Part shown: positions 2,236-43,823 of the stretch, one piece after another
Position numbering within the stretch: position 1 is the first letter of the stretch
Layout of the letters: the number at the start of each line of letters is the position of its first letter
NCBI RefSeq assembly: GCF_017471675.1
Contig: NZ_JAFUSK010000056.1
Location: 1 to 43,823, forward strand
Origin: Pseudobutyrivibrio sp.
GTDB lineage: Bacteria > Bacillota > Clostridia > Lachnospirales > Lachnospiraceae
DNA: 43,823 nucleotides
Reading direction: 5' to 3'
The notes under the pieces: model-generated
The model's database searches: none
The model's input: the letters and a program-made list of their open reading frames with translations, nothing else
Told to the model about the DNA's origin: nothing
Program-made: the position numbers and the translations under genes

Positions 2236-2304
2236 TAAAATCACGCTAAAAATTATTAAGTCTTTGTTAAATTTACGAGGATAGGCGGCGGTATAGTTTT
2301 TTTA

Positions 2305-2325
2305 TGCTCCCGAAAGCCATCTCCC
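2305..2325. repeat. Fragment of the GC-rich hairpin element family
   Basis: The first 21 bases match, at 20 positions, the left end of the element at 24345-24582 (TGCTCCCG followed by AAGCCATCTCCC). The rest of that element is not recognisable. It starts five bases after the stop of the MATE gene and reads on the plus strand. Confidence 0.55.
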
Positions 2326-2329
2326 GCCC

Positions 2330-6561: not shown

Positions 6562-9500
6562 CTAATACCTGCGGCGTGTTTTTTCGAATTCAATCTTTTT
6601 ATCCACAACCTTTACGTTGTCTTCACCGTATAATCCACGGAGAGTTGAAAGGTTATCCAAAGAAGCGGCCAGGCTGCAATTTGCGCCCATGCGCTTAACA
6701 GCCTTCTCTTCTGTAAGGTAAATAACAAGACTATCGTTACCGTCCATTTCACGGATTGTATCAAGAAGCTGGCCTTCACTGGCGCTATAAATATCTTTAT
6801 TGGCAAACTGAATCCAGATTTCTCTAGAGCAATCATCAAAGGATTTGATGTCGTCACAAATAAGCTTAGCACCACGCTCATCTTCGTTTTGAACATGGCC
6901 CTTGATAAATACCTTGTTTCCCTCTGTAATGAGAGCGCGGGATTTCTCAAAACTGTTTGGAAATACGATAACCTCCAAAGCACCTGTTAAATCTTCGATA
7001 TTTATAAATGACATTGCCTTGCCATTTTTTGTGTATTTTACAGTGGAATCCATAATGATTCCGCCCACTACAACCTCTGCACCATCCTTGATGCTGGCGT
7101 ATGATTCCTCGCCGCTAAGTGCACCCTCATCATCTCCATCAGCATCTGACATAAATTCGCTGGCGTGGGCTGTAACATTTTTCTCTAAGATTGGGATGTA
7201 ATCATCCAAAGGATGGCCACTTACGTATACTCCCATCAGCTCCTTTTCAAAGGCAAGCATAAGCTCCTTAGGGAATTCGTCTGCCTGTGGAAGCTGAACC
7301 TTAAGCTCTTCCTTTTGCTCGTCAGTGGCAAAATCAAACAGGGACATCTGGCCTTCCATAGTGTTCTTTTTGTTATGGCTGACAGAATCCATTATCTGCT
7401 GGTAGATAAGAATCTTTTGTCTGCGGTTGCCATCTAATGTATCTAAAGCACCTGCCTTAATCAGGTTTTCTACTGTACGCTTGTTGGCATCGTATTTGCT
7501 AACGCGGGTAATGAAATCCTCAAGATCACGGTAAAGACCGTTTTTCTCTCTTTCCTCTATTATAGAAAGGACAGTGCTGCCACCCACTGACTTGATAGCA
7601 GAAAGACCATAGCGGATGCTGCCATTATCAACAGAGAAATCAGCCTCTCCATAATTAACATCAGGTGGAAGGAGCTTGATTCCAGCCTCCCTACATTCTG
7701 CTATATATTCTGCAATCTTTGTACTGCTGTTAAGCACTGATGTCATCAGAGATGCCATGTACTCTAGTGGGTAATATTTCTTAAGGTATGCTGTCTGCAC
7801 TGCCACGTAAGAATATGCAACAGCGTGAGATTTATTAAATCCGTACTCTGCGAAAGGCATAAGCTGGTCGAAAAGCCAGCCTGCATCTGCTTCACTGATT
7901 CCGTTTGTCTCAAAACATCCCTGCACGAAGGCAGGACGTTCTGCTGCAAGCTTATCCCTTTTCTTCTTACTCATGAATCGTCTTACATTATCGGCACGAC
8001 CCATGGTAAATCCGGCACAGGTAGTCATAATCTGCATAACCTGCTCCTGATAAACAGGAAAGCCGTAAGTATCAGAAAGCACATCCTTAAGAAGTGGGAA
8101 CTTCTCGATAAATGGAGACTGCTTGCCAGTATTCTTACATTCGATGATGTCAGGAATGAAATCCATAGGACCTGGTCTGTAAACTGCATTAGCAAGTACA
8201 AGGTCCCCGATGTGAGTAGGATTAAGTTGCTTTAAAAGTCCCTTCATTCCAGAGGATTCAAACTGGAATACACCCTCTGTCTTGCCATCAGCAAAAAGCT
8301 CCATTACAGCCGGGTCGTTATAATCTATCTCATGCATATCAAGCTTGATATTATAGTTTTTCTCCACCTGCTTGATAGTGTCACTGATAACAGTAAGGTT
8401 TCGAAGCCCAAGGAAGTCCATCTTAAGAAGTCCGATATCCTCGATTACTTCCTTTTCGTACTGGGTGATGATAACATCCCCCTTACCAAGTGCAAGCGGC
8501 ATGTACTCTACAGTAGGCTTGCCAGAAATAACAACACCTGCTGCATGCACGCCAGTGTTACGTGGCAGTCCTTCCAAGCTTTTGCATATATCAAGGAGCT
8601 GGCGAACCTGGTCGTCACTTTCGTAAATTGCCTTAAGCTCAGGGCTATAGGCTAATGCTGTTTCGATTGTAACCTTTTTCTCAGGAATAGCATCTGGAAT
8701 AAGCTTCTTGATGCTATTGGTAAAAGGAATTGGCAGCCCCATTACTCTTCCAACATCCTGCACCACGCTCTTAGGCTTAAGTGTACCGAAGGTAACAATC
8801 TGTGTTACGCAGTCATCACCGTACTTTTTACGGACATAATCGATTACCTCTTCACGGCCTTCCGGGTCAAAATCCGTATCAATATCAGGCATGGATACAC
8901 GCTCAGGATTAAGGAAACGCTCGAAAACCAGCTTGTATTCCATAGGATCGATATCGGTGATACCTGTGGTGTAGCTGATAAGGGAACCTGCCGCAGAACC
9001 ACGCCCTGGGCCTACAGGAATACCATGGGTTCTGGCATAATTAATGAAATCCCACACAATAAGGAAGTATTCCACATACCCCATTTCCTTAATGGTGTTA
9101 AGCTCATAAGTCAGACGTTCCTCGTAATCCTTAGCCTTTTCTTTATAGCGTTCCTTAAGACCATCAAAGCAAATCTTATTAAGATATGTCCAGGCATTAT
9201 AGCCCTCTGGCACAGCAAAAGGAGGCAAGCCTGCAATGTGATACTGAATCTCAACATTACATCTATCTGCTATCTCCTGAGTACGATAAACTGCCTCCTT
9301 GGCATAAGGGAACAGCTCTAGCATCTCCTCCTCAGACTTAACGTAGAACTCCTCTGTTTCAAAGCGCATTCTATCTACGTCGTCAAGCCTTGCTGCTGTC
9401 TGAATACAAAGAAGCACATCATGGCTATAAGCATCCTCTTTATTGGTATAGTGGCAATCGTTAGTAGCCACAAGAGGAATACCAGTCTCCTTGGAAAGAC

Positions 9501-10074
9501 GCAGCAAACCCTGATTAACATTTTGCTGTTCTGCAATACCATGATCCTGCATCTCAAGGAAATAGTTATTAGCACCAAAGCAATCCCTATACTGAATGGC
9601 AACCCTCTTAGCCTCTTCATAATCCCCACGATTTAAAGCTCTGGCTACCTCTCCTGCCAGGCAGGCAGAAAGGCAGATAATACCCTCGTGGTATTTCTCG
9701 ATAGTTTCGAAATCTACACGTGGCTTATAATAAAAGCCCTCCACATAACCTACAGATACAATCTTCATAAGATTATGGTAGCCCAAGTCATTTTCTGCAA
9801 GCAAAATAAGGTGATAGTATCTATCCTCACCCTTTACCATTTCTCTATCAAATCTGGAGCCTGGAGCCACATAGACCTCACAGCCAATAATAGGCTTAAG
9901 GCCCTGGGCCATGCACTCATCATAAAATTTGGTTACGCCATACATGTTGCCGTGGTCTGTGATGGCGGCTGCGGTCATGCCAAGATCTAGGCACTTCTTA
10001 ACATAAGACTTTATCTTATTAGAGCCATCCAGCAGCGAATACTCTGTATGTGTGTGTAAATGTACAAAACTCAT
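6562..10074 (-). CDS. dnaE: DNA polymerase III alpha subunit DnaE
   Basis: Replicative or lesion-bypass C-family polymerase, 1170 residues. Domains in order: PHP (from HLHTHTEYSLLDG, 5-17, to about 280); palm with two of the three catalytic aspartates in PDIDTDF (396-402, D397 and D399); fingers; helix-hairpin-helix region around residues 830-880; and a C-terminal OB fold (about 990-1070, VVVGGIIMDSTVKYTKNGKAM). There is no PolC-type exonuclease. Firmicutes usually also carry polC, in which case this is the second polymerase used for primer extension; that copy is not in this window. ATG 10074 follows GAGG by six bases. The upstream gap holds a structured repeat element (10102-10243). Confidence 0.97.
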   Translation of the reverse strand: MSFVHLHTHTEYSLLDGSNKIKSYVKKCLDLGMTAAAITDHGNMYGVTKFYDECMAQGLKPIIGCEVYVAPGSRFDREMVKGEDRYYHLILLAENDLGYHNLMKIVSVGYVEGFYYKPRVDFETIEKYHEGIICLSACLAGEVARALNRGDYEEAKRVAIQYRDCFGANNYFLEMQDHGIAEQQNVNQGLLRLSKETGIPLVATNDCHYTNKEDAYSHDVLLCIQTAARLDDVDRMRFETEEFYVKSEEEMLELFPYAKEAVYRTQEIADRCNVEIQYHIAGLPPFAVPEGYNAWTYLNKICFDGLKERYKEKAKDYEERLTYELNTIKEMGYVEYFLIVWDFINYARTHGIPVGPGRGSAAGSLISYTTGITDIDPMEYKLVFERFLNPERVSMPDIDTDFDPEGREEVIDYVRKKYGDDCVTQIVTFGTLKPKSVVQDVGRVMGLPIPFTNSIKKLIPDAIPEKKVTIETALAYSPELKAIYESDDQVRQLLDICKSLEGLPRNTGVHAAGVVISGKPTVEYMPLALGKGDVIITQYEKEVIEDIGLLKMDFLGLRNLTVISDTIKQVEKNYNIKLDMHEIDYNDPAVMELFADGKTEGVFQFESSGMKGLLKQLNPTHIGDLVLANAVYRPGPMDFIPDIIECKNTGKQSPFIEKFPLLKDVLSDTYGFPVYQEQVMQIMTTCAGFTMGRADNVRRFMSKKKRDKLAAERPAFVQGCFETNGISEADAGWLFDQLMPFAEYGFNKSHAVAYSYVAVQTAYLKKYYPLEYMASLMTSVLNSSTKIAEYIAECREAGIKLLPPDVNYGEADFSVDNGSIRYGLSAIKSVGGSTVLSIIEEREKNGLYRDLEDFITRVSKYDANKRTVENLIKAGALDTLDGNRRQKILIYQQIMDSVSHNKKNTMEGQMSLFDFATDEQKEELKVQLPQADEFPKELMLAFEKELMGVYVSGHPLDDYIPILEKNVTAHASEFMSDADGDDEGALSGEESYASIKDGAEVVVGGIIMDSTVKYTKNGKAMSFINIEDLTGALEVIVFPNSFEKSRALITEGNKVFIKGHVQNEDERGAKLICDDIKSFDDCSREIWIQFANKDIYSASEGQLLDTIREMDGNDSLVIYLTEEKAVKRMGANCSLAASLDNLSTLRGLYGEDNVKVVDKKIEFEKTRRRY

Positions 10075-10101
10075 TAAATACCTCTATAGTCCGCAAGCTG
10101 C

Positions 10102-10243
10102 AAACAAGTTATTTGAAGGTTTACATGCTCCCGCAGGGCACCCTCCATACCTAACCATGGGAGCCCGCCGGCGTGGGCCCCCACCCATGGTCAGGCATGG
10201 TGCCTCCCTGCTCGCGCTTGCCAAGGTTAGGTATAACTTGTTT
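10102..10243. repeat. GC-rich hairpin element, copy 1
   Basis: An outer perfect 11-bp inverted repeat (102-112 with 233-243 of this kilobase) encloses TGCTCCCG (10126-10133) on the left and CTCGCGCTTGCCAAGG (10211-10226) on the right. Between them GCAGGG pairs with CCCTGC, CCAT with ATGG and ACCATGGG with CCCATGGT, with GCCGGCGTGGGC near the apex. The core is far more GC-rich than its surroundings. The same end blocks and stem layout, with different stem sequences, occur at 24187-24330 and, inverted, at 24345-24582. It fills most of the gap between pepF and dnaE. Open frames crossing it are not coding. Confidence 0.8.
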
Positions 10244-10292
10244 TCATCTTGCTCATCTAAATTTACTACTTTATCATCGACGATTTACGAAA

Positions 10293-12089
10293 TTAAACAA
10301 GAGTCGAAAGTTCGTCGACGATGGTGCCCATCTTGCGAAGGGCGGCTTCGATTGGGGCTGGGGTGGTTAGGTCAACTCCGGCAATCTTAAGAAGCTCAAC
10401 TGGGGCATCGGTACAGCCTGATGAAAGAAACTTCTTGTAACGGGCAACTGCTGGCTCACCCTCAGTAAGTATCATGTCTGCAATGGCTACTGCTGCACAG
10501 AAGCTGGTTGCATACTGATAAACGTAGAAATTGTAATAGAAGTGAGGAATACGTGCCCACTCGTATGCAATTTCATCGTCTGAAATCATATCTGGTCCAT
10601 AATAACGTGCGTTTATGTCCTTATATAGGGACGAAAGATTTTCAGCGTTAAGGCTCTCGCCCTTTTCTACCATTTCGTTTGTGATTTTTTCAAATTCTGC
10701 AAACTGTGTCTGACGGTATACTGTACCCTTGAAGCTATCAAGATAGTGATTAAGAAGATAAGCTCTCTCTTTTTTGTCAGTGCAGTTCTTAAGTAAGTAC
10801 TCTAATAAGAGGATTTCGTTACATGTAGATGCAACCTCAGCAACGAAAATCTTGTAGTGTGAGTAGATAAATGGCTGTGCTTCATTTGAATAATGGCTGT
10901 GCATGCTGTGGCCCATTTCGTGAGCTGTTGTAAACATATCATCGAAGGTATCGTGATAGTTTAAAAGCATGTATGGGTGAACACCGTATGCTGTGTCAGA
11001 ATAAGCTCCACCCCGCTTGCCCTTGTTCTCATATACATCAATCCATCTGTTTGCGAAGCCTTCCTTAAGAAGTGCAACATAGTCATCACCTAACACTGAA
11101 AGAGCCTTGCAGATTGTCTCCTGAGCCTCCTTGTAGGTTACCTTCTTTGCAACATCTGCAATCATAGGTGTGTAGATATCGTACATATGAAGCTCATCTA
11201 CGCCTAAGCACTTCTTACGAAGAGATACATAAGCGTGAAGCTTATCCAAGTTAGCGTTTACAGTCTTAACTAAGTTATCGTAAACCTCTGGTGATACGTT
11301 GTTTGCATCAACAGCTGCCTTACGATTTGATTCGTAATTTCTAACGCGAGAATAGAACATACGCTGCTTAACTTCGCCACTGTAAGCTGCAGCAAATGTA
11401 TTTAAATAACCTTTCATTGTGCCATAGTAAGCCTTGAAAACGTTCTCTCTAACGTTTCTGTCAGCTGACATCAAAAATGGAACGAAATTACCGTTTGTAA
11501 GAGCTGACTCTTCACCGTTTTCGTCCTTCACATTAGGGAATGTAAGGTCGATGTTTGTGAATGCTTCATATACTTCTCCAGGTGTGTTTGACATTTCTGC
11601 TGTCATGGCAACAACCTTTTCAAGCTCTGCTGATAATGTGTGAGCCTTTAATCTAACGATTTCCTTAATCTCCTTTTTATAAAGCTCAAGTCCGGCTTCT
11701 TCATTGTAGAACTGCTCTAGCTTTGCGCTGTCGCAGGCTAATATTTCTGGTGTGATAAATGACAAATCTGATTCCATTTTTGCATACAATGAAACCATTT
11801 TCTGGTTCATGCTTCTATGCTTAGAATTGCCCTGATCTTCATCAAAAAGTCTTGCTGAATAAAAATATGCCTTCTCAACCTTCTCTTCTACGAAAGCTGT
11901 CTCCTCTAAAACCTTAAGAAGAGTATTTGCGCTTTCGCAAACCTTGCCTGCAAACTTTGTTAGTTCTTCAAGCTTATCGTTAACAAGCTTTACATCAGCT
12001 TCCCATAATTCCTCTGTTTCATATACGTCATTAACATTCCAGGTATCTTCAACCTTTACCTGGTCTCTAGACATTAATTCCTTTGCCAT
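10293..12089 (-). CDS. pepF: Oligoendopeptidase F (M3B zinc metallopeptidase)
   Basis: Cytoplasmic zinc endopeptidase degrading oligopeptides of roughly 7 to 17 residues. At 598 residues it has family length. The zinc motif HEMGH (390-394, catalytic E391) lies in TTAHEMGHSMHSHYS and the third ligand is probably E418 in FVAEVASTCNE. The N-terminal helical domain and the C-terminal stretch ARIPHFYYNFYVYQYATS, typical of PepF, are present. No signal peptide. GGAGG lies eight bases before ATG 12089. It stands alone: a divergent small gene is upstream and a repeat element follows it. Confidence 0.96.
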   Translation of the reverse strand: MAKELMSRDQVKVEDTWNVNDVYETEELWEADVKLVNDKLEELTKFAGKVCESANTLLKVLEETAFVEEKVEKAYFYSARLFDEDQGNSKHRSMNQKMVSLYAKMESDLSFITPEILACDSAKLEQFYNEEAGLELYKKEIKEIVRLKAHTLSAELEKVVAMTAEMSNTPGEVYEAFTNIDLTFPNVKDENGEESALTNGNFVPFLMSADRNVRENVFKAYYGTMKGYLNTFAAAYSGEVKQRMFYSRVRNYESNRKAAVDANNVSPEVYDNLVKTVNANLDKLHAYVSLRKKCLGVDELHMYDIYTPMIADVAKKVTYKEAQETICKALSVLGDDYVALLKEGFANRWIDVYENKGKRGGAYSDTAYGVHPYMLLNYHDTFDDMFTTAHEMGHSMHSHYSNEAQPFIYSHYKIFVAEVASTCNEILLLEYLLKNCTDKKERAYLLNHYLDSFKGTVYRQTQFAEFEKITNEMVEKGESLNAENLSSLYKDINARYYGPDMISDDEIAYEWARIPHFYYNFYVYQYATSFCAAVAIADMILTEGEPAVARYKKFLSSGCTDAPVELLKIAGVDLTTPAPIEAALRKMGTIVDELSTLV

Positions 12090-15423: not shown

Positions 15424-15578
15424 CCGCATAATCTTGCTGAAGTTAGTCCGCATAATCTTACGTTCACAAGCATTAATATTCCTCACTCGACTTATGTCTC
15501 GTTCGAAAAATTAATAGCTTGTTAACTAGATTATGCTCACCTAAGGGCTTTATTGCTTCTAAGCAAGATTATGCTCAC
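15424..15578. repeat. Clustered 9-13 bp direct and inverted repeats upstream of the GH8 gene
   Basis: CCGCATAATCTT occurs at 15424 and 15448; AGATTATGCTCAC occurs at 15528 and 15566 (38 bases apart). The two pairs face each other, and GCATAATCTTGCT (15427-15439) and AGCAAGATTATGC (15562-15574) are exact complements over 13 bases. The cluster occupies the 192-base gap between permease and GH8 genes. It could be a set of regulator sites, an alternative RNA fold in the GH8 leader, or a duplication remnant. Confidence 0.7.
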
Positions 15579-15599: not shown

Positions 15600-16562
15600 T
15601 TATTCCTTTACTCCACCTAACGTAAGTCCGGTTACGAAGTAACGCTGAAGGAATGGGTAGATACAAATGATAGGAAGCATTGTAATAATTGTAGCTGCGG
15701 CTCTTACAGAAGTAGGGGTTACTGTTCCTGTAGAGTTCTTCATTGACTCAGCTGATGCGCTCTGGTTTGTAACTGATGAAAGGAGCTTCATAAGCTCGTA
15801 CTGTAATGTTGTTAAATCGCTACGCATTCTGTTATAAAGCATTGCATCGAACCATGAGTTCCACTGTCCTACAGCCACGAAGAGTGCAACAGTTGCATAA
15901 ACTGGCTTGCATAATGGAGAAATGATTTTTAGGAAGATTGTAGTATAGCCAGCACCATCAAGCTGCGCAGACTCTTCCAAACTGTCAGGAATACCTCTCA
16001 TATAGGTTCTTATAACTAACATGTTAAAGGCAGATAACATTCCAGGTACTACATAAACAGCAAAGCTATTTGTAAGCCCGAGGGATTTAAACAGAAGAAA
16101 GGTTGGAATTAATCCACCATTAACATACATTGTAATTACCCAAAACAGTGACAATGGCTTAGCAAACATAAAGTTCTTACGGCTAACGATAAATGCAAGA
16201 ATTGCATTTGTTACAAGAGCAAGTAATGTACCAATGACTGTTCTTGCAACTGTTACGATAGCACCAGCGATAAGGTTGTCCTTCTCAAGTACTGTCTGGT
16301 AGTTCTTCCAGGTAAATACACGTGGTACTAAGTGAATTCCACCACGAAGTGCATCTGTACCATCATTAAGTGAGATAGCAAGTGTATTTAACACTGGGTA
16401 TAAAGTAATTATTACGAATAAAAGCATGAAGATTCCATTGCAAATTCTAAAGGCCAAATCTGGACCAGAAATTTTCTTGTGTTTTCTTCTTGTGTTTGTT
16501 TTTTCTAAAGTGATTGATTTAGTTTTAACAGCGCTCATAGTTTTCATACCTACTGAATCCAT
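15600..16562 (-). CDS. Sugar ABC transporter permease, LplC type (transporter 1)
   Basis: Second permease of a CUT1-family importer for oligosaccharides, 320 residues. A cytoplasmic N-terminal tail rich in Lys and Thr is followed by six hydrophobic segments. The ATPase-docking EAA loop reads EESAQLDGAGYTTIFLKI at about residue 200, and the C-terminus ends in TLGGVKE, as in LplC/YtcP proteins. AGGAGG lies six bases before ATG 16562. It follows the LplB-type permease by 11 bases and is certainly cotranscribed with it. No ATPase gene is near, so a shared MsmX-like ATPase encoded elsewhere is expected. Oligoxylosides are the likely substrate from context only. Confidence 0.95.
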   Translation of the reverse strand: MDSVGMKTMSAVKTKSITLEKTNTRRKHKKISGPDLAFRICNGIFMLLFVIITLYPVLNTLAISLNDGTDALRGGIHLVPRVFTWKNYQTVLEKDNLIAGAIVTVARTVIGTLLALVTNAILAFIVSRKNFMFAKPLSLFWVITMYVNGGLIPTFLLFKSLGLTNSFAVYVVPGMLSAFNMLVIRTYMRGIPDSLEESAQLDGAGYTTIFLKIISPLCKPVYATVALFVAVGQWNSWFDAMLYNRMRSDLTTLQYELMKLLSSVTNQSASAESMKNSTGTVTPTSVRAAATIITMLPIICIYPFLQRYFVTGLTLGGVKE

Positions 16563-22602: not shown

Positions 22603-24156
22603 TTACTCTAATTCTGTAACACTAAGCCAAGAGAAGTCACAATTGTTGTTGCTCTCTTCGCCGTTAGATGAAGTGTACATTCCCACTGTACAGCCAACAA
22701 ATCCGCCTGCCTCTTCAGTTGTATATGGAATCAAATCCACATCATCCTTTACTAGTATATAATTATTGCCGCGGATTAGCCATACACTAGCTGACTGATT
22801 TTTTGCTTTTATTTCAATTTCTGCTGATGGGTTGTGTAATAATGTTGAAGCAATAACCTTTTCCTCTCCCTTAATTACTGTTCTAACCTGAAGTGCAAGG
22901 GCTCCATTCTTCTTTACAATCTCTGCTACCAAATGATTAGCGTGATTCTGGAACAATACCAAACCACCGCATTCATTTTCATTAGCAGGATTAAATTCAA
23001 CCCTAGTATTAACCTTAAATGAATAATCCTTTTGACGCAAGCCCAAATATGATGGATAGCATGTATCTTCTATACGCTCTTTTCTAGTATGAAGTCTCAT
23101 AAAGCCTGGTCGCTCTGTAAGAGAATAAATCTCCTCATTTCGCTTCTCGATTCCAACTAATCTGTCATCAAGCTTGTCTGAATAGAAATGTAATGTATCA
23201 CTCCAATCATTTTCCTGTGGGAATGGATGCTCCTCAAATGGAACCTCAACATCATCTGTAAGCTTGCCAATACCAGGATTGATTACTGGCCATCCATCTT
23301 CCCATTCAACCTTTGCAAGGAATGTCTCACGGCCGATACTGCAGTGCTTCTGACAAGGACGTGATGCAAGCATAACGATATAGTAGTTACCGTTCTTATC
23401 ATCTACCAAATCACCATGTCCAGCATAGATGATAGGATAATCCTTACCCAGATTTCTATGTGAGAAAATTGGGTTTCTAGGGCAGCCCTCGAACCACTTA
23501 AAAAGCTCCTTTGAACGAGCCACTGAAATAGCATGCTCTGGACCTGTACCTCCCTCAGCATGAAGAAGATAATAATAGCCATCCTTCTTGTAAAGATGTG
23601 GACCTTCTGGCCAGATAACATCCTTAACTGCGCCCTTCCAGATAGCCATAGACTCACCTGTAAGCTTCATTGTATTTAAATCTAATTCCTGTACCCAAAT
23701 CTCCCAGTCTCCGTTATATCTTACTCCCTCTGGATTAGGACGTGTGCCAACATAATAGCACTTACCATCATCATCAAAGAAAAGTGATGGGTCGATGCCA
23801 GGTGCATCCTCCCCAAGATAATATGGCTTAGACCATGGGCCTGCTGGATCCTTTGCAGTAACGATGAAGTTACCGCCATGGCTCACATTTGTTGTAATCA
23901 TATAGAATGTGCCATTGTGCTCTCTAATTGTAGGAGCGAAAATTCCTCTTGAAATCTCCCCACTTACTGGAAGCTGCTCCTCGTCATGAAGCACATGACC
24001 AATCTGCTCCCAATGAGCCAAATCCTTACTATGAAAAATTGGAACCCCCGGTGCATACACAAAGCTAGAGCAAACAATATAAAAATCGTCGCCTACTCTG
24101 CATACACTTGGGTCCGGATAAAATCCCTTCAAAATAGGGTTGTGTGCTGTTGTCAT
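22603..24156 (-). CDS. GH43 beta-xylosidase / alpha-L-arabinofuranosidase
   Basis: Five-bladed propeller glycosidase, 517 residues. Catalytic triad: base D15 in FYPDPS, modulator D122 in GIDPSLFFDDD and acid E184 in IWPEGPHLYK. The propeller ends near residue 310 and is followed by a C-terminal beta-sandwich of about 190 residues (DWSDTLHFYSDKLD onward), as in intracellular GH43 xylosidases. No signal peptide. Whether xylose or arabinose is preferred cannot be told; the LLHAEGGTGPEHAISVARS stretch also occurs in arabinofuranosidase subfamilies. ATG 24156 follows AGAGG by six to seven bases. The 430-base gap upstream contains two structured repeat elements. Confidence 0.93.
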   Translation of the reverse strand: MTTAHNPILKGFYPDPSVCRVGDDFYIVCSSFVYAPGVPIFHSKDLAHWEQIGHVLHDEEQLPVSGEISRGIFAPTIREHNGTFYMITTNVSHGGNFIVTAKDPAGPWSKPYYLGEDAPGIDPSLFFDDDGKCYYVGTRPNPEGVRYNGDWEIWVQELDLNTMKLTGESMAIWKGAVKDVIWPEGPHLYKKDGYYYLLHAEGGTGPEHAISVARSKELFKWFEGCPRNPIFSHRNLGKDYPIIYAGHGDLVDDKNGNYYIVMLASRPCQKHCSIGRETFLAKVEWEDGWPVINPGIGKLTDDVEVPFEEHPFPQENDWSDTLHFYSDKLDDRLVGIEKRNEEIYSLTERPGFMRLHTRKERIEDTCYPSYLGLRQKDYSFKVNTRVEFNPANENECGGLVLFQNHANHLVAEIVKKNGALALQVRTVIKGEEKVIASTLLHNPSAEIEIKAKNQSASVWLIRGNNYILVKDDVDLIPYTTEEAGGFVGCTVGMYTSSNGEESNNNCDFSWLSVTELE

Positions 24157-24186
24157 AATCTACCTCTTTCTAATAATCGTTAGTCC

Positions 24187-24330
24187 GCCTGTTAATGCTC
24201 CAAGATGCTCATGCTCCCGTAGGGCACTCGCCATACTTTCGCAAGGGAGGCCGCCGGCGTGGGCACCCACCCTTGCTCGGTATGGTGCCTCCCTACTCGC
24301 GCTCACCAACTTTTATTTCCATTAACAGGC
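24187..24330. repeat. GC-rich hairpin element, copy 2
   Basis: Outer perfect 11-bp inverted repeat GCCTGTTAATG (24187-24197) with CATTAACAGGC (24320-24330). Core from TGCTCCCG (24212) to CTCGCGCTCACCAA (ending 24309). Inside, GTAGGG pairs with CCCTAC, CCATAC with GTATGG and GCAAGGG with CCCTTGC around GCCGCCGGCGTGGGC. Compared with copy 1 at 10102 each stem has changed on both sides. Lies between the esterase and GH43 genes, in plus orientation. Confidence 0.8.
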
Positions 24331-24344
24331 TCATTTAAGAACCA

Positions 24345-24582
24345 GCTAGCAGTACTCAACCTTGGCAAGCGCGAGCAAGATATGACCATCATTTTCCGAA
24401 TGTAATGAAGGAAAATGTTGGTCTAGTAAGCGGAGCTTACATCGGTGGCCCTCAAAGTTCCTTGCAAAGCAAGGATGCCTTTGAGGACATGCCATGTGGT
24501 TAAGGAGGGACCCTTTAGGGAGGTTCCCTTGACCGCAATGGGAGATGGCTTGCGGGAGCACGGAACACTCGGGGCTGCTAGC
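24345..24582. repeat. GC-rich hairpin element, copy 3 (inverted, longer insert)
   Basis: Reads on the minus strand. Outer inverted repeat GCTAGCAG (345-352) with CTGCTAGC (575-582). The left block TGCTCCCG is at 24560-24553 and the right block TCGCGCTTGCCAAGG at about 24374-24360. The inner closing stem is GCAAG with CTTGC. The insert is about 100 bases longer than in copies 1 and 2 and is made of further hairpins (for example GTAAGC/GCTTAC, CCTTGC/GCAAGG, CATTTTCC/GGAAAATG). It ends five bases before the stop of the esterase gene. A 71-codon open frame across it is not coding. Confidence 0.78.
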
Positions 24583-24586
24583 GTAA

Positions 24587-26284
24587 CTATTTAACTACCC
24601 CAAATCCTAGGATAGTGAATTTGTTGCGGGTGGTGTCCTGGTCCACGTGGATTTCTACGTGGTGGGTGCCGGTGGTTTGCTCATCGATGAGGATGAGTGG
24701 GTTGCAGTGGCACCAGCGGTTTACGTATGGGTCAAGGTCACGGATGAATTGGCCGTCTACGTAGGCTTTGGCGGTGGCTGCGTCTACTTCGCCGGAATCC
24801 TTCATGATGACTACAAGGGCCTTGCAGTCTATGTCCATGGCAAATACGTTGTTGTGGGACTTGCTGCCATCGTACATCCAGTTGTATGGGAACTCTGGTG
24901 TAAGATGAAGGTCCATGTTCATTTCTACTGACTGAAGGACTGTGTCTGTTTCTGTGAAACCGCTAGCATCGATTGTAGCTGCATCAGTGTTGTCCTTCTT
25001 GTCGAGAAGGAATACATTGTCGAAGGTGTTTCCAATGGCTGGTGCATCGGATAGCCTTGGGTCGTATGATGCATCGGCACCCTTTTGGATAGCTTCCTTC
25101 ATAATGTTGATTAGGCAGTCTGCCATGATTGTGTGTCCCAGATTTGTAGGATGGAACATATCGTAAAAGTACTGATGCTTTGTAAGGATACGGTTATCTC
25201 TGTCATAGAACTGTGGAGTTACTGCATCCTTTACGCTGGCCATGCCAAGGTCATATCTAAATCCAACAGGTGATAATCTATCCTGTAGGTTATAATCGTC
25301 TGCAAATACAGAGAACATAAGAAGTACCGCTGGATTGCTTGGTAGGCTAAGAGCACGTCTTACTAAGCTTTCGTAGCAGTCACCCTTTGTCTCGTCACCT
25401 TCGTCGTTTACGGCAAATTCTACTACAAGAATGTCTGGCATCACCTTGCCATAGCACAGTACATCTCTTTCAAAGCGACACATGCCAAGCTCTGAAGGTG
25501 TACCACCTACGCCTGCCTTAAGATAGTGGATGTTGTCGCCATCACCCATAAGCTTCTTGAAGCCTAGGAATGACTTATAAGCATAGCATTCTGTGTTGAT
25601 TGGTGTAGCACCTGCGCCCTGTGTAATAGAGCCACCGATATAGCAGATGTTTACATCCTCTCCTCTTTTTGCCTTTTCAACCACATCAAGGATGCGCTTT
25701 GTGTTTCCAAGGTTTACTAAGGAGCGGTCAATCATTTCCTTGTATTCTTTGGAATTTGTATCTACTGGCTTTTCCTCAAGCTGAGGTGGTGCTGTATATC
25801 CATCATTTAAAAAGAATCTTACAGAAAGATATGCCTTCTCCTCTGGGGCATCTGTATGAATTCTAATCTGGCCTGGCACATCGTCATCATCTGTCCAGTC
25901 TATATCACTCATGTAGATTCTTTCTTCTTTAGAATTCGTATTTACGGTAGCCTTTAGGTTGGCTCCACCGCCGTACAAATCCTTCTTTCCATACATCTGG
26001 AAAACAAATTCTGCTGTCTTATCCTTGTCTTCCATCTCAATTGAAACACCTACGGAATGTACAAGCTTTCTAAAGCCTTCCACTGTTTCCATAAGCTTAA
26101 GTGTAGCCTCATCAGTTACGTTTCCTGTGAAGGATGCGCTGCTGATTAAACGTCCGTCGCTTTGGTAAAGGTATGAAACACCTTTGCCGTTTTCATCTTC
26201 TGCTGTGAAGATTTCTTTGTCTTTTATTACGTAAAAATATGGCCTATCCTTTTCTGGATCCGTAGGCGCTTTAACTATTTCCAT
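24587..26284 (-). CDS. Multidomain SGNH-hydrolase, probable xylan/xylo-oligosaccharide acetyl esterase
   Basis: A 565-residue cytoplasmic protein. N-terminal beta-rich domain of about 170 residues, central SGNH hydrolase, then a C-terminal beta-rich domain of about 150 residues. SGNH blocks: I, CYIGGSITQG with nucleophile S219; II, AGVGGTPSE; III, VVEFAVND with N293; V, YDMFHPTN with D375 and H378. These are the residues of carbohydrate acetylesterases. Its place between GH3 and GH43 genes argues for removing acetyl groups from imported xylo-oligosaccharides. I cannot assign it to a named CE family. ATG 26284 is preceded by AGGAGG at eight bases; the 26314 start would overlap that site. Gap to the GH3 gene: 46 bases. 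Confidence 0.85.
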   Translation of the reverse strand: MEIVKAPTDPEKDRPYFYVIKDKEIFTAEDENGKGVSYLYQSDGRLISSASFTGNVTDEATLKLMETVEGFRKLVHSVGVSIEMEDKDKTAEFVFQMYGKKDLYGGGANLKATVNTNSKEERIYMSDIDWTDDDDVPGQIRIHTDAPEEKAYLSVRFFLNDGYTAPPQLEEKPVDTNSKEYKEMIDRSLVNLGNTKRILDVVEKAKRGEDVNICYIGGSITQGAGATPINTECYAYKSFLGFKKLMGDGDNIHYLKAGVGGTPSELGMCRFERDVLCYGKVMPDILVVEFAVNDEGDETKGDCYESLVRRALSLPSNPAVLLMFSVFADDYNLQDRLSPVGFRYDLGMASVKDAVTPQFYDRDNRILTKHQYFYDMFHPTNLGHTIMADCLINIMKEAIQKGADASYDPRLSDAPAIGNTFDNVFLLDKKDNTDAATIDASGFTETDTVLQSVEMNMDLHLTPEFPYNWMYDGSKSHNNVFAMDIDCKALVVIMKDSGEVDAATAKAYVDGQFIRDLDPYVNRWCHCNPLILIDEQTTGTHHVEIHVDQDTTRNKFTILGFGVVK

Positions 26285-26330
26285 TACATTATCCTCCTTA
26301 AAAGGCTTCTCCATTTTAGGGGGAAGGCTT

Positions 26331-29189: not shown

Positions 29190-29215
29190 AGAAAATTAAA
29201 ACTCTACTTTTGAGG

Positions 29216-29338
29216 TTAAAATGCAGCCAAGGTAAGCTGCATTTTAATCTGCTTCGCAGACAGCAATTTTAAATGAATAAATTCATTCAAAATTACTGCC
29301 ATTTACGAATAGAGTTTTTTGATAAAAACTCTATTCTA
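29216..29338 (-). repeat. Four-hairpin intercistronic module, copy 1
   Basis: Starting at the TAG stop of the binding-protein gene there are four hairpins in a row: GAATAGAG/CTCTATTC (29307-29336); AATTTT..ATGAA/TTCATT..AAAATT (about 29264-29295); TCTGC/GCAGA around TTC (29248-29260); and TTAAAATGCAGC/GCTGCATTTTAA around CAAGGTAA (29216-29247). The same order, spacing and loops recur at 31055-31180 with paired substitutions. The terminator at 29151 follows in this copy only. Confidence 0.85.
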
Positions 29339-31006
29339 TTCCACTGATGTGGAAGAACCATACTTAGCTTCAAACTTTTCTGTTCTCTCATCCATGATTG
29401 CCTGTCCACCTGCTGAAAGGTAATCTGAGATACCCTGATCCCAAACCTTGTCGAAATCAGCTGGCTTTGCTGCAAGTGCTGTATCAAATACAACATCTCT
29501 CTTAGATGAAAGTGCCTCACCCATACCATTTTCTGCAACAACTTCTGGAACCTTTACGTTCTTTGCAATCTTGTTGTTTGTTGCAGCATAATCAAGTGCC
29601 TGCTGTACATCAGCTGGATCACATGATGGGTAGCTGTGTGCCATAGAAAGAAGTGTAAGATCATCATCACCAAGTGAAAGACCGTTACATGTAATTGTGT
29701 AATCGATGTTGTTACCTGAGTTCATGATTGGGTCGCCTGTTGCAGCGATGCACTCGATAGCGCCATCGTCAAGTACGTTGTGTGTTACACCTTCATCACC
29801 AATCTGTAAGTACTTGATGTGCTCTGGAGCTGAAATCCAGTCAAGGTAAAGAAGTGATGCAAGTGGCTCATCATTTGTTGTAGGGAAGAAGATTTTTCTA
29901 TCGCCTGCTGTTGAATCTACATACTTAAGTGTCTCGCCCTTTGAGTTTTCGAAGCAATCAACTGCTACATACTTAGCATCATCGCCAACGATTCTCTTAA
30001 GGTTAGCCTGGATTGAATCATCTCCACCACGGAAAGGATAATCCCAGTTGTGCTGGAATGCACCAACATAACCAGCCTTCATCATATCATCCTCTGTTGA
30101 ATCACCAGCTGTGTAAAGTGCGAAATCGTTCCAAAGTAAGCCTTCGTTGTACCACTTATTAAGTGTCTTCATAGCTTCCTTTGTTCCGTTCTGTGTAAGC
30201 TTTCTATCATCAAATCCGTTGATGTAGAATTCCTTATCTGTGATATCTGGATCCATCTCTGACTCAATAAGAAGAGCTGCTCTCCAACCTACATCAAATG
30301 AAACTGAGAATGGAACCATCTTGTCTGCATCCTTGCCAAGAAGCTCCTTAGCGTTATCACGGAATGCACAAATATCTTCGTAAAACTCTTCCTTTGTCTT
30401 TGGCTCTTCAAGACCAAGCTTATCAAGCCAATCTTTTCTCATGAATGTGTTGATACGTCTATTGTTAGCACGCTTTCCTTCGATTGCCCAAAGTGTACCC
30501 TTCTCATCATCTAAATCCCAGTAGATGTTTGTATCACCAAGCCAATCGTTAAGGTTTGTAAGCTCTGAACCATACTGATCCATAAGTGGCTTTAAATCTG
30601 TAACACCGCCCATGTTAGCGTATGTCTGAATTGTTGGGTATGAGTATGTAAGGCAGATATCTGGCGCTCCGCCTGAAGCAAGAAGGTTGTTGATTTCTTC
30701 TGTTTCTGTCCAACGTGGAACTGCAACAAACTCAACCTCTACGTTGTGATCCTCAAGCATACCCTTTTTGATGTACTCTGTGTACATGTTGTCTGTAGGG
30801 TCTGTACCGCCATCGTTTCCTCTGTCATAAACCTCAACAGTGATGTGCTTTGTCTCAGAAAACTTTCCATCAACAAGCTCAGATGCGCCTGCAGATTCGC
30901 TGCTTTCTTTTGATGTGTCTGCTGACTTTTCGCTAGAGCCACCGCAGCCCACCATTCCTAGTGCCATTGCACCGGCAAGCACTAATGCTACTAATCTTTT
31001 TTTCAT
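29336..31006 (-). CDS. Oligosaccharide-binding lipoprotein (transporter 2)
   Basis: Solute-binding lipoprotein, 556 residues from the chosen start. Signal peptide MKKRLVALVLAGAMALGMVG and lipobox C21, followed by a Ser/Lys/Glu-rich linker of about 25 residues that tethers the domain above the membrane. It resembles the large CUT1 binding proteins but is clearly different in sequence from the one at 17565. Two adjacent ATGs follow GGGAGG at three and six bases; I take the second (31006). In this transporter the binding-protein gene comes after its permeases, the reverse of transporter 1. Four-hairpin modules lie on both sides. Ligand inferred from context. Confidence 0.94.
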   Translation of the reverse strand: MKKRLVALVLAGAMALGMVGCGGSSEKSADTSKESSESAGASELVDGKFSETKHITVEVYDRGNDGGTDPTDNMYTEYIKKGMLEDHNVEVEFVAVPRWTETEEINNLLASGGAPDICLTYSYPTIQTYANMGGVTDLKPLMDQYGSELTNLNDWLGDTNIYWDLDDEKGTLWAIEGKRANNRRINTFMRKDWLDKLGLEEPKTKEEFYEDICAFRDNAKELLGKDADKMVPFSVSFDVGWRAALLIESEMDPDITDKEFYINGFDDRKLTQNGTKEAMKTLNKWYNEGLLWNDFALYTAGDSTEDDMMKAGYVGAFQHNWDYPFRGGDDSIQANLKRIVGDDAKYVAVDCFENSKGETLKYVDSTAGDRKIFFPTTNDEPLASLLYLDWISAPEHIKYLQIGDEGVTHNVLDDGAIECIAATGDPIMNSGNNIDYTITCNGLSLGDDDLTLLSMAHSYPSCDPADVQQALDYAATNNKIAKNVKVPEVVAENGMGEALSSKRDVVFDTALAAKPADFDKVWDQGISDYLSAGGQAIMDERTEKFEAKYGSSTSVE

Positions 31007-31054
31007 CATATACCTCCCAAGTATAATTTATTTTGTATATTCCCCTTAATAGGG

Positions 31055-31180
31055 TTTAAATGCAGCCAAGGTAAGCTGCATTTAAATTTGCTTTCAGCAA
31101 ACACCAATTTTAAATGAATAAATTCATTCAAAATTGATGCCATTTACGAAATGAGTTTTTTTGATAAAAACTCATTTCTA
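31055..31180 (-). repeat. Four-hairpin intercistronic module, copy 2
   Basis: Begins at the TAG stop of the permease gene. Stems: GAAATGAG/CTCATTTC (31148-31178); CAATTTT..ATGAA/TTCATT..AAAATTG; TTTGCT/AGCAAA around TTC (31087-31101); TTTAAATGCAGC/GCTGCATTTAAA around CAAGGTAA (31055-31086). It covers most of the gap up to the binding-protein gene. Loops are nearly identical to copy 1 while stems differ on both sides. Confidence 0.85.
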
Positions 31181-32146
31181 TTCTTTCACAGCACCCAAGG
31201 TTACTCCATGGATGAAGTACTTCTGTAAGAATGGATAGATGCAGAGGATTGGAATCGTAGAGAACATTACGATTGCAGCCTTTAAGGATTCTGATAAACC
31301 AGGTGTTGAGAATCCTTCCTGTGTGGCAACCTCTACTGAATTCATATTGTTCAAAATGTTATAAAGTAAAAGCTGAAGAGGATAGAAATCCTTATTCTTC
31401 ATATACATCAACGCATCTGAGTAACCGTTCCATCTACCTACCGCATAAAAGAGGGCAAGTGTTGCTATTACTGGTTTTGACAGCGGTAGGTAGATAGACC
31501 AAAGGATACGGAAGAATGATGCGCCATCAATCTCTGCCGATTCTCTTAGGGAATCTGGAATTCCATAGAAGAAGCTTCGCATGATAATCATATTGTAAAC
31601 ACTCATACATCCTGGGATGATAAGTACCAGTGGATTATCAAGAAGATTTAATTCCTTCATAAGTAAGTAGTTAGGAATTGTTCCTGCATTGAAGAACATT
31701 GTTATCGTAATTACGATATTGAAAAAAGATCTTCCCTTAAGCTTGTTAAATATAAGTGGATATGCACAAAGCACTGTCATTGTTAAGGAAATGAATGTGC
31801 AAATCACTGTTAAAAATACTGTCCAAAAGAATGACTTTACATATTTAGGGTCCCCTAAAACTGTTGAGTAAGCGTCAATATTTAGTCCCTTTGGAAGTAA
31901 ATAAACCTCTCTTCTTACAAGGAAATCTGTTCCAGAAAGAGAACGTGCTAAAAGGTTAATCATTGGAACCAGGCAGATTAAACTAATGAGTACACAAATG
32001 ACTACGAATACGATATCTCCTACCTTTGTGCCATCAGATTTAACCATACGGCTTGTTTCCATCTCGTCATCTTTTTCTTTTTTTCTAGAAAGTGCAAAAC
32101 TTTTCAAACCAAATTTTCCTTTCTTTAAAGCCATCTCGTTTGCCAT
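31178..32146 (-). CDS. Sugar ABC transporter permease, LplC type (transporter 2)
   Basis: CUT1 permease of 322 residues. A 45-residue basic and acidic cytoplasmic N-terminus precedes six membrane segments. The EAA loop reads RESAEIDGASFFRILWSIYLP at about residue 210 and the end TLGAVKE matches LplC proteins. AGGAGG lies six bases before ATG 32146, ten bases after the LplB-type permease gene. Works with 32157-33113 and the binding protein at 29336. As for transporter 1 there is no ATPase gene. The stop codon is the first base triplet of the hairpin module at 31055-31180. Confidence 0.95.
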   Translation of the reverse strand: MANEMALKKGKFGLKSFALSRKKEKDDEMETSRMVKSDGTKVGDIVFVVICVLISLICLVPMINLLARSLSGTDFLVRREVYLLPKGLNIDAYSTVLGDPKYVKSFFWTVFLTVICTFISLTMTVLCAYPLIFNKLKGRSFFNIVITITMFFNAGTIPNYLLMKELNLLDNPLVLIIPGCMSVYNMIIMRSFFYGIPDSLRESAEIDGASFFRILWSIYLPLSKPVIATLALFYAVGRWNGYSDALMYMKNKDFYPLQLLLYNILNNMNSVEVATQEGFSTPGLSESLKAAIVMFSTIPILCIYPFLQKYFIHGVTLGAVKE

Positions 32147-34800: not shown

Positions 34801-34829
34801 CAAAAATCAATAAACAAATTGCGCTTATC

Positions 34830-34948
34830 TTCTTCCATCCAGACTATACTGTCGGTACCAGAATCTCACTGGTTCGGCCCTAAGGCTCGCGGACTATACC
34901 GCCGGTCAGGAATTGAAAGCCTTCGCTTTCGCACCTTGCCCTGAAGAT
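34830..34948 (-). ncRNA. FMN riboswitch (RFN element)
   Basis: On the minus strand the RFN consensus is plain: ATCTTCAGGGCAAGGTG at the start, CCTGACCGGCGGTATAGTC in the middle, CCGACAGTATAGTCTGGATG at the end. The flanking P1 strands ATCTTC and GAAGAT pair. Located between a good promoter and the ribU leader terminator. Confidence 0.97.
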
Positions 34949-34967
34949 TTCCTATTTAATTGAGTAT

Positions 34968-39547: not shown

Positions 39548-39566
39548 AAATAAGAAATAAATAATG

Positions 39567-39648
39567 ATGCTAGGGGCGCATTTGCTGAGAGGTGGAATAA
39601 CACCGACCCTTATCACTTGAACTGGATAATACCAGCGTAAGGAAGCTT
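39567..39648 (+). ncRNA. TPP riboswitch (THI box)
   Basis: Core motifs in order: GGGGCGC, GCTGAGA, ACCCTTATCACTTGAACTGG and GGATAATACCAGCGTAAGGAAGC. This is the thiamine pyrophosphate aptamer, directly upstream of thiT. Confidence 0.97.
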
Positions 39649-39653
39649 TTTTG

Positions 39654-39681
39654 ATCTCCTAGCTTATGTATGAAGGGAGAT
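39654..39681 (+). promoter_or_regulatory. Likely Shine-Dalgarno sequestering hairpin of the TPP switch
   Basis: ATCTCC (654-659) can pair with GGAGAT (676-681), which contains the ribosome site of thiT. The overlapping CCTAGC (658-663) can instead pair with GCTAGG (569-574) at the 5' edge of the aptamer. The two pairings exclude each other, which is what translational control needs. No terminator is seen here. Confidence 0.65.
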
Positions 39682-43401: not shown

Positions 43402-43432
43402 TTATTACTATCTAGTACATTTTTTACTTCTG

Positions 43433-43704
43433 AGATAGTAGGCATTTTTCATTTTATTACTATCTATGTTCTATTTTTGCTCTCAGGTAGTAGTTCATAT
43501 CTTTTTCTCTACTACCTATCCTCGATTTTTTCTCTCAGGTAGTAGTTCATATCTTTTTCTCTACTACCTATACTCTATTTTTGCTCTTAGGTAGTAGTTC
43601 ATATCTTTTTCTCTACTACCTATCCTCGATTTTTTCTCTCAGGTAGTAGTTCATGTCTTTTTCTCTACTATCTATTTCAAATTTTTGCTCTCAGGTAGTA
43701 ATCC
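43433..43704. repeat. 52-bp tandem array of hairpin units
   Basis: Unit starts at 43433 (degenerate), 43485, 43537, 43589, 43641 and a partial one at 43693 give an exact 52-base period. Each full unit carries AGGTAGTAG, 15 bases, CTACTACCT, then a T-rich half ending in CTCTC. In the first unit both arms change together (AGATAGTA with TACTATCT). A further weak half unit lies at about 43404-43432. Not a CRISPR: the sequence between the palindromes is repeated too. Confidence 0.88.
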
Positions 43705-43823
43705 ACAGTCAAGTCCATATTTGTGTGTAAATTCATCTTTCAGTTAATATTGTATTCCTCAGGCCACTCTCATTTTTATGAGCTCCTTTTGTATTTTATT
43801 GAGGTTATCGTAGTACTCCTGCA
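43705..43823. other. Right edge: AT-rich, with a possible gene end
   Basis: Nothing clear except a short minus-strand frame entering from the right edge and stopping at 43759-43761. Its 20 visible residues (EYYDNLNKIQKELIKM and neighbours) look like an amphipathic helix. Confidence 0.4.
43759..43823 (-). CDS. Possible C-terminal end of a gene entering from the right
   Basis: Open from the window edge in one minus-strand frame, 20 codons then TGA at 43761-43759. The residues are Lys/Glu/Asn-rich with heptad-like leucines. The 52-bp array would lie just downstream of it, between two convergent genes. Too short to be sure that it codes. Confidence 0.35.
   Translation of the reverse strand, partial: QEYYDNLNKIQKELIKMRVA

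Follow-up and report, generated by a model that had tools for sequence, protein, structure and literature searches.

What kind of element keeps its unpaired internal loops nearly invariant while its outer stem differs in sequence from copy to copy and still pairs? The question is raised by three GC-rich hairpins in a 43,823-nucleotide stretch of a Pseudobutyrivibrio genome (contig NZ_JAFUSK010000056.1, positions 1 to 43,823; hereafter the window). A first-pass annotation had described them as structured intergenic elements with conserved ends and covarying stems, which might be a new RNA class, a mobile hairpin or a REP-like recombination or gyrase site.

Hairpin elements in the window

Both blocks that had been reported as common to the three copies, TGCTCCCG and the 3' motif CTCGCGCTYRCCAA, are present in each of them at the reported places. 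TGCTCCCG lies at 10126, 24212 and 24553 (minus), with a fragmentary fourth occurrence at 2305; these four compare with a mean of 0.69 and a maximum of 3 in 100 shuffles. CTCGCGCTYRCCAA matches exactly at 10211, 24296 and 24362 (minus), and once with two mismatches at 16069. The outer stems of elements 1, 2 and 3 are AAACAAGTTAT/ATAACTTGTTT (11 bp), GCCTGTTAATG/CATTAACAGGC (11 bp) and GCTAGCAG/CTGCTAGC (8 bp), lying 13, 14 and 14 nt outside TGCTCCCG. These values, read directly from the sequence, agree with the earlier description, as do the closing stems GCAGGG/CCCTGC, GTAGGG/CCCTAC and GCAAG/CTTGC. The elements of the window are:

10087..10261, minus strand: GC element 1 and its site hairpin, with a TAGTCCG end (10087-10093) and a CTCATCTAA end; outer arms 10102-10112 and 10233-10243, TGCTCCCG 10126-10133, 3' motif 10211-10224
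24180..24338, minus strand: GC element 2, with a TTAGTCC end and a CTCATTTAA end; outer arms 24187-24197 and 24320-24330, TGCTCCCG 24212-24219, 3' motif 24296-24309
24345..24582, plus strand: GC element 3, inverted; outer arms 24345-24352 and 24575-24582, 3' motif 24362-24375 (minus), TGCTCCCG 24553-24560 (minus)
2290..2328, no strand assigned: truncated copy of the TGCTCCCG end (TGCTCCCGAAAGCCATCTCCC), just past the 3' end of a MatE-family gene
15438..15560, minus strand: type B hairpin TTAGTCCGCATAATCTTACG...CTAGATTATGCTCACCTAA, matched by the type B model R2 at 15445-15543 (minus, E 1.4e-13)

All three GC intervals fold better than their dinucleotide shuffles (z -3.45, -4.80 and -7.26). R1, a covariance model built from 48 copies of the GC element, matches element 1 at 10104-10242 (minus, E 7.8e-30; this copy belongs to the model's alignment), element 2 at 24190-24328 (minus, E 1.3e-22) and element 3 at 24452-24582 (plus, E 8.1e-9), with the other end of element 3 at 24344-24422 (E 0.018). 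Element 3 has extra inner hairpins at about 24378-24487, which at the same site are absent in one relative (G006) and different in another (G008). The fragment at 2290-2328 has no adjoining 3' motif and gave no R1 report at E ≤ 0.1.

A dispersed repeat family of Pseudobutyrivibrio

The GC elements are a dispersed repeat family of the genus Pseudobutyrivibrio, bigger than first described. The genome of the window (G000; 3.10 Mb, 92 contigs) has 42 matches to CTCGCGCTYRCCAA with at most one mismatch, against 1 for the reversed motif. Exact CTCGCGCTYRCCNA is present in 24 of 29 Pseudobutyrivibrio genomes and in 0 of 8 genomes from other genera of the family. It occurs in 2 of 24 genomes of the order with 1-2 matches each, where the control also gives 1-3, and R1 has no match in those loci. 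The annotation had proposed a covariance-model search of Lachnospiraceae. Such a search did yield further copies, confined to one genus as sampled: R1, with strict filters and at most 16 candidates scored per genome, found elements in 2 of 200 family genomes, both Pseudobutyrivibrio, hence in 1 of 199 genera.

The motif occurs in 97 named loci, of which 79 carry the name Pseudobutyrivibrio and 18 another name. One of these 18, named Butyrivibrio fibrisolvens 16/4 (L106), is a real GC element (R1 E 1e-25), and 16 of the other 17 have no R1 match. The remaining one, from Chromatiaceae (L116; 72% G+C), has a weak match (E 0.0009) that we take as chance. R2 has no match in the 15 of these 18 loci that were searched with it.

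From the fetched loci, 146 elements were extracted, or 120 once near-duplicates were removed. Extraction had a limit of 320 nt and required at least 3 of 6 closing pairs, so that the innermost stem is partly selected and the outer stem is not. Two of the 120 (L092, L120) are chance coding matches from other organisms and are excluded where we count 118 copies. Pattern-based typing of cores left 35 of 120 as "other" and was kept out of the counts. The reported GC richness extends to the family, with 63% G+C in the core against 39% in the 45-nt flanks of the 120 copies. The claim that all copies are intergenic holds for most of them; 15 of 120 (10 of 39 in G000) overlap by more than 60 bp a mechanical open reading frame of at least 90 amino acids, that is, a putative gene. 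Several assemblies are drafts or metagenome-derived, and in G000 a number of copies lie within a few hundred bases of the ends of contigs C9, C10, C14, C15, C89 and C92. Copy number in draft genomes is therefore probably underestimated.

At its gathering score, Rfam reports for the window an FMN riboswitch (34823-34952, minus) and a TPP riboswitch (39562-39660, plus), and nothing for the elements. With permissive settings, 24100-24640 returned four matches, none of which reached the gathering score, and there was no match in seven loci that contain GC and type B copies. A phage or plasmid origin was also considered and rejected, as element 1, the one element tried against 50,697 phage records, and element 3, the one tried against 72,556 plasmid records, had no match there.

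Pairing of the outer stems

The outer stems pair far above chance. We show this with a stem test restricted in register, in which the stem's inner end precedes TGCTCCCG by 11-16 nt and follows the 3' block by 8-12 nt. At least five perfect pairs are found in 115 of 120 copies, against 9.5% with right arms dealt among copies, and at least eight in 74 of 120, against 0.8%. The innermost 6-mers of the outer stems are distinct in 79 of 110. In G000 alone, which is free of orthologues, 38 of 39 copies have at least five pairs (8.6% with dealt arms), with 35 distinct innermost 6-mers among 38 copies. The register test was used because an earlier free stem search, in which 50 of 120 copies exceeded the control's 99th percentile, lost short stems. 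Stem and core also meet in a preferred register, with 85 of 110 copies on a single pairing diagonal. Related copies are non-independent in these pair counts, and in the orientation counts given below.

Paired changes are also seen in an alignment of 48 copies (A1), taken from those with stems of at least 6 bp and thus favouring paired cells. All nine outer pairs have double changes, as do 2 of 8 and 4 of 6 pairs in the inner helices. The covariation score, taken as a criterion of structured RNA, is above its controls: 0.437, against 0.157 when shuffled (0 of 500) and at most 0.144 with slid partners. Two other A1 measures do not stand out, namely further pair types (50 against 50.2 shuffled) and pairs with a double change (15 against 12.9 shuffled; 20 of 500). 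The internal loops of the core, which are unpaired, are invariant or nearly so.

The proposal of a structured family, in which blocks are conserved and stems keep their pairing, is thus borne out. Neither outcome that the first-pass annotation had named as telling against it is seen: homologues with paired changes exist in relatives, and the elements are not identical to an Rfam family. It had placed covariation in the stems; paired changes are also found inside the core and in type B.

Outer stems belong to the site

The outer stem is a property of the site, not of the element, and is common to related species while the interior is replaced. For this comparison, we paired non-identical copies that occupy one site (33 pairs) and scored identity over the shorter core. 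In 8 of the pairs, at six sites, core identity is 0.80 or less, which is as low as for cores from different G000 loci (median 0.795); the 7-nt stem arm is nevertheless the same in both copies, and flank identity is 0.75-1.00. Another 5 of the 33 show gain or loss of inner parts (at least 0.91 over the shorter core; for example, L148/L162, with flanks of 1.00 and 0.97), and one is mixed (0.86). Core replacement is not universal, since 19 of 33 pairs keep essentially the same core (at least 0.90 over both lengths). Measured over the longer core, 14 of 33 pairs are at 0.82 or less, and these are the 8 replacements, 5 gains or losses and 1 mixed case just given for the shorter core.

Replaced cores resemble cores found elsewhere. 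Seven of the eight low-identity pairs were re-examined, and in all seven each of the two cores has a nearer relative elsewhere in the set than its partner at the site, a comparison that sets the best of about 118 cores against one partner and so favours the other-site core. In six of the seven, the nearest core at another site is 0.92-1.00 identical, against 0.51-0.73 for the partner; in L013/L049, the nearest other-site cores are at 0.80 and 0.93, against 0.51. Among locus pairs within G000, 26 of 741 have cores at least 0.95 identical, and their stem arms are only 0.30 identical.

The L006 site, where 29 loci were compared, provides the fullest example. The stem GTATAAGCTG/CAGCTTATAC is kept in six species. 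Five of these have a core, of four kinds, G000 and G015 having the same kind (0.99). The cores of G008, G012 and G016 match best at other sites (0.85, 0.87 and 0.96, against 0.69, 0.70 and 0.78 with G000). Misassembly of drafts is unlikely for G012, whose genome assembly consists of two contigs. The sixth species (G002, L328) has the core deleted between repeats, TGCTC|GCGCTTGCC, with stem and linkers kept; a like deletion between TGCTC repeats, again with stem and linkers kept, is seen in L248 at the L027 site. Ten of the remaining loci at the L006 site have type B hairpins, as judged by eye.

Since the stem belongs to the site, stem diversity across copies mostly reflects different stems, not drift of one. 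Comparison across orthologous sites thus gives the covariation a different meaning. Covariation is the usual proof of a functional RNA; here, stems are owned by sites and tips are exchanged, and this family tests how far covariation alone can be trusted.

Type B hairpins

A second hairpin family, type B, has ends, sites and nesting in common with the GC elements. Its internal loop, GTTAC/CTAC on the strand first annotated, has 39 matches; reversing the sequences leaves 3, and each of five altered motif pairs yields 0-1. To be included, a copy had to show this loop together with 4 or more outer and 5 or more inner pairs, so such columns are paired by selection. Across 45 copies, 23 of 31 predicted pairs have double changes, partly by this selection of copies; among the inner 16 pairs (alignment columns 29-49), mostly not selected for, 14 have them. 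R2 finds at least 26 copies in G000, where all scored candidates matched; a further 149 genera of the family gave no match. Type B is nested in L039 and L153, and in L107 a GC core sits on a type B stem, with a left flank resembling that of L059, which has a type B tip.

Strand preference

The RNA-like bias sits on the reverse complement of the orientation in which the elements had first been written. That strand folds better in 108 of 120 copies, by a mean of 9.4 kcal/mol, compared with 53 of 109 random segments. With G-U pairs forbidden, the difference remains (mean 4.26, 113 of 118), so it comes partly from other features, such as loop composition. Between tandem genes, the reverse complement of GC elements is sense to both neighbours in 61 cases versus 22 (p 2e-5; in G000 alone, 19 versus 6, p 0.015), and that of type B in 33 versus 15 (p 0.013). 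The RNA strand of element 1 would be minus, as for both its neighbours, the DNA polymerase III alpha gene (6562-10074) and a peptidase M3 gene (10293-12089). That of element 2 would also be minus, as for a GH43 gene (22603-24156) and the open reading frame at 24587-26314.

In type B, G-U exceeds A-C by 44 to 6 (in 14 of the 15 informative column pairs, p 0.001), an excess that selection on RNA of the reverse-complement strand would produce. The corresponding excess in GC elements is weak (36 to 20; columns 9 to 6). These features point to the reverse complement as the strand that would be transcribed, and transcription itself we infer from sequence. In A1, the RNA strand of the GC core has many GGA/GGAGG motifs in internal loops (e.g., TTAAGGAGGGACC and CGGGAGCA), for which a CsrA-like or ribosome-related role is a speculation. 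The many intercistronic hairpins lie in genomes of rumen fibre degraders, and their effect on gene expression is directly measurable.

Occupied, empty and altered sites

Comparison of relatives at the same sites, which the annotation had suggested, shows elements present, absent or replaced. At the 24.16-kb site, the flank matches are just 10-21 bp apart in 10 of 20 readable genomes. Both GC elements of the window occur in 3 genomes, and the other 7 differ again; among these, G014 has a GC core on another stem. Element 1 is missing from the orthologous site in L202/L203. Across 13 readable genomes at the dnaE site, 5 have GC elements, on three different stems; 4 have 33-50 bp and no such hairpin, 3 have type B or a similar hairpin, and 1 has an insert of about 1 kb. 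The modules are thus dispersed; an orthologous site has one in some relatives and lacks it in others, and on a stem that persists, modules are exchanged or lost. With sites that are filled, replaced, deleted or unoccupied, the 29 related genomes offer a natural system for studying the movement of hairpin repeats.

At the L027 site, the core lies inside the loop of an intrinsic terminator with a T-tract. Judged by eye, the terminator here is bare, with unrelated stems, in 21 of 29 genomes, and G025, G008 and G016 have type B in the terminator tip. As a general rule, a place in terminators was rejected: a T-tract lies beyond the stem in just 4 of 118 copies, the same rate as at random positions (38 of 1180). 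TAGTCC- and CTCAT-like ends are both present in 17 of the 118 copies, one of them in 14 and neither in 87.

No target-site duplication was recognised by eye at six sites across the genus, where no pair gave a clean insertion boundary, and no autonomous copy turned up among the elements extracted within the 320-nt limit; the word mobile therefore rests on dispersion and on presence or absence. Among the relatives' sites that were read, none has the same stem with a bare, never-filled loop, and L248 and L328, the two cases without a core, keep their linkers.

Two further observations concern individual sites. At the L037 site, where G000 has a GC element, L276-L280, L286, L288, L290 and L295 have another intercistronic double-hairpin repeat (GGCTTCCCCTTGAGGGGAAGCTGTCAGCGAAGCTGACTGATGAGG in L277). 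By eye, L104/L084 and L016/L105 have a hairpin block in seemingly opposite orientation within the same intergenic interval of two species, as if the block had been inverted.

Relation to known repeats

Several described repeats resemble the Pseudobutyrivibrio elements in part. BOX elements of Streptococcus are mosaics, intergenic hairpin repeats in which the ends are fixed and the interior modules vary. In BOX, the outer ends are conserved in sequence; in our elements, each site has its own outer stem, and conservation is limited to blocks within it. ERIC, NEMIS (Correia) and RUP are bacterial MITEs: intergenic, hairpin-forming, non-autonomous and about 100-200 bp long (PMC2229807). Size, intergenic place, hairpin folding and non-autonomy are as in our elements. 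NEMIS occur with or without a 50-bp internal sequence, and ERIC are transcribed with their neighbours and have an orientation-dependent effect on mRNA stability (PMC2229807). A table in that source gives these families terminal inverted repeats and target duplications; the Pseudobutyrivibrio stems vary by site, with 35 different innermost 6-mers in 38 G000 copies where a MITE has conserved terminal inverted repeats, and no duplication was recognised. Exchange of interiors at a fixed stem likewise sets our elements apart from ERIC, NEMIS and RUP.

GTAG REPs are intergenic hairpins of 20-40 bp associated with RAYT genes, many of them plausibly transcribed (PMC3733652). In all 45 aligned copies of type B, GTAG stands at the foot of the inner hairpin, by construction, since its complement CTAC served to select them. 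No GTAG tag is found among the conserved blocks of the GC core. A REP/RAYT identity was rejected, as the RAYT enzyme (Y1 transposase, PF01797) has 0 matches in G000, and also in G008; it is present in 10 of 29 genus genomes. The word Firmicutes is absent from the main text of the GTAG REP/RAYT paper (PMC3733652).

IS1397 and ISKpn1 are mobile DNAs that target REP palindromes (PMC1525189). They are insertion sequences that encode a transposase, for which the Pseudobutyrivibrio modules of about 100 nt are far too short. Volvox organelle genomes have short palindromic repeats with palindromes within palindromes (PMC2670323). These are algal organelles, and conserved internal loops or tip exchange on a fixed stem, as found here, go unmentioned in the available text of that paper.

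Interspersed, transcribed hairpin repeats such as ERIC, NEMIS and REP are thus a known kind of element (PMC3733652, PMC2229807). Within the open-licence part of PubMed Central, we found no description of the Pseudobutyrivibrio family or of a site-owned stem with an exchanged tip. The apparently new feature is that the outer stem is the site's property and the tip is exchanged, which matched no family described in that literature.

Origin of the hairpin repeats

We consider it probable that the elements are modular, non-autonomous hairpin repeats of Pseudobutyrivibrio, built of a site-specific stem and an exchangeable tip, with exchange by recombination or template switching and an ERIC-like role in mRNA. 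The outer stem is about 5-20 bp long, sometimes flanked by TAGTCCG and CTCATNTAA. The GC tip module has a core, TGCTCCCG...CTCGCGCTYGCC, mostly 83-101 nt long and up to about 200 nt with extra inner hairpins. Type B is another kind of tip, with a GTAG/CGTAAC internal loop and a CAAGC/GCTTG stem, and modules can be nested. Tips may be replaced through recombination or template switching between copies over the short conserved blocks that flank them, perhaps aided by hairpin extrusion, and cores may be deleted between the TGCTC direct repeats of the two blocks. The hairpins would lie in intercistronic or 3'-untranslated RNA, preferentially in the sense of the reverse complement, and would act like ERIC RNA on mRNA processing or stability, the conserved unpaired blocks being a candidate binding or cleavage signal. 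A possibility that we consider rather unlikely is a structure-guided mobile module: non-coding tips would move between fixed stems and displace one another there, with a hairpin tip and not a sequence as target, and would spread without a dedicated transposase, possibly via RNA or single-stranded DNA that has been extruded.

Were the elements miniature transposons, with a transposase supplied in trans and insertion into the loops of existing hairpins, as with IS1397 in REPs, the outer stem would be a pre-existing target. The core in the terminator loop at the L027 site, with its bare counterparts in 21 of 29 genomes (by eye), would fit, as would type B on terminator tips in G025, G008 and G016 and nested in L039 and L153. 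We nevertheless think this unlikely, given that no relative has the same stem with a never-filled loop among the sites read, that T-tracts are at the random rate (4 of 118) and that G000 and 19 of 29 genus genomes lack the Y1 family. The preferred register of stem and core (85 of 110 on one diagonal) also speaks against it.

Improbable, in our view, is a classical structured cis-regulatory or non-coding RNA, riboswitch-like or protein-binding, that is selected at each locus and whose stems drift by compensation. At orthologous sites, the element is often absent or replaced by a different hairpin, the kind of core changes on a fixed stem, and the stem at a site is the same in related species. 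Core replacement argues against a regulatory RNA of a single locus; furthermore, the seven window genes scanned, mostly neighbours of elements, have no function in common. Such an RNA would account for the paired changes with conserved unpaired blocks (A1, 0.437 versus 0.157; type B, 23 of 31) and for the orientation bias relative to neighbouring genes. Quasi-palindrome template switching is a known mutational process, and the stem pairing could be its by-product, inverted repeats being perfected without selection. This would explain stems that are perfect yet unrelated, and we judge it very improbable: it should erase the internal loops, yet these are nearly invariant, and a G-U excess on one strand of type B is not expected at the level of DNA. 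Conserved unpaired blocks thus argue against a purely mutational upkeep of pairing, and modular repeats with exchangeable tips remain our preferred reading.

Other repeats in the window

The window contains three further repeats. A tandem repeat at 43406-43705 has four copies spaced by 52 bp, and a repeat at 202-458 has four copies spaced by 74 bp with a TTGTGACAGAA-like core and inverted matches at 503-552. Between neighbouring genes, 29214-29341 and 31053-31183 share about 130 bp of near-identical sequence (91-93%, in three pieces) with the palindrome AATTTTAAATGAATAAATTCATTCAAAATT, which looks like a duplicated regulatory region.
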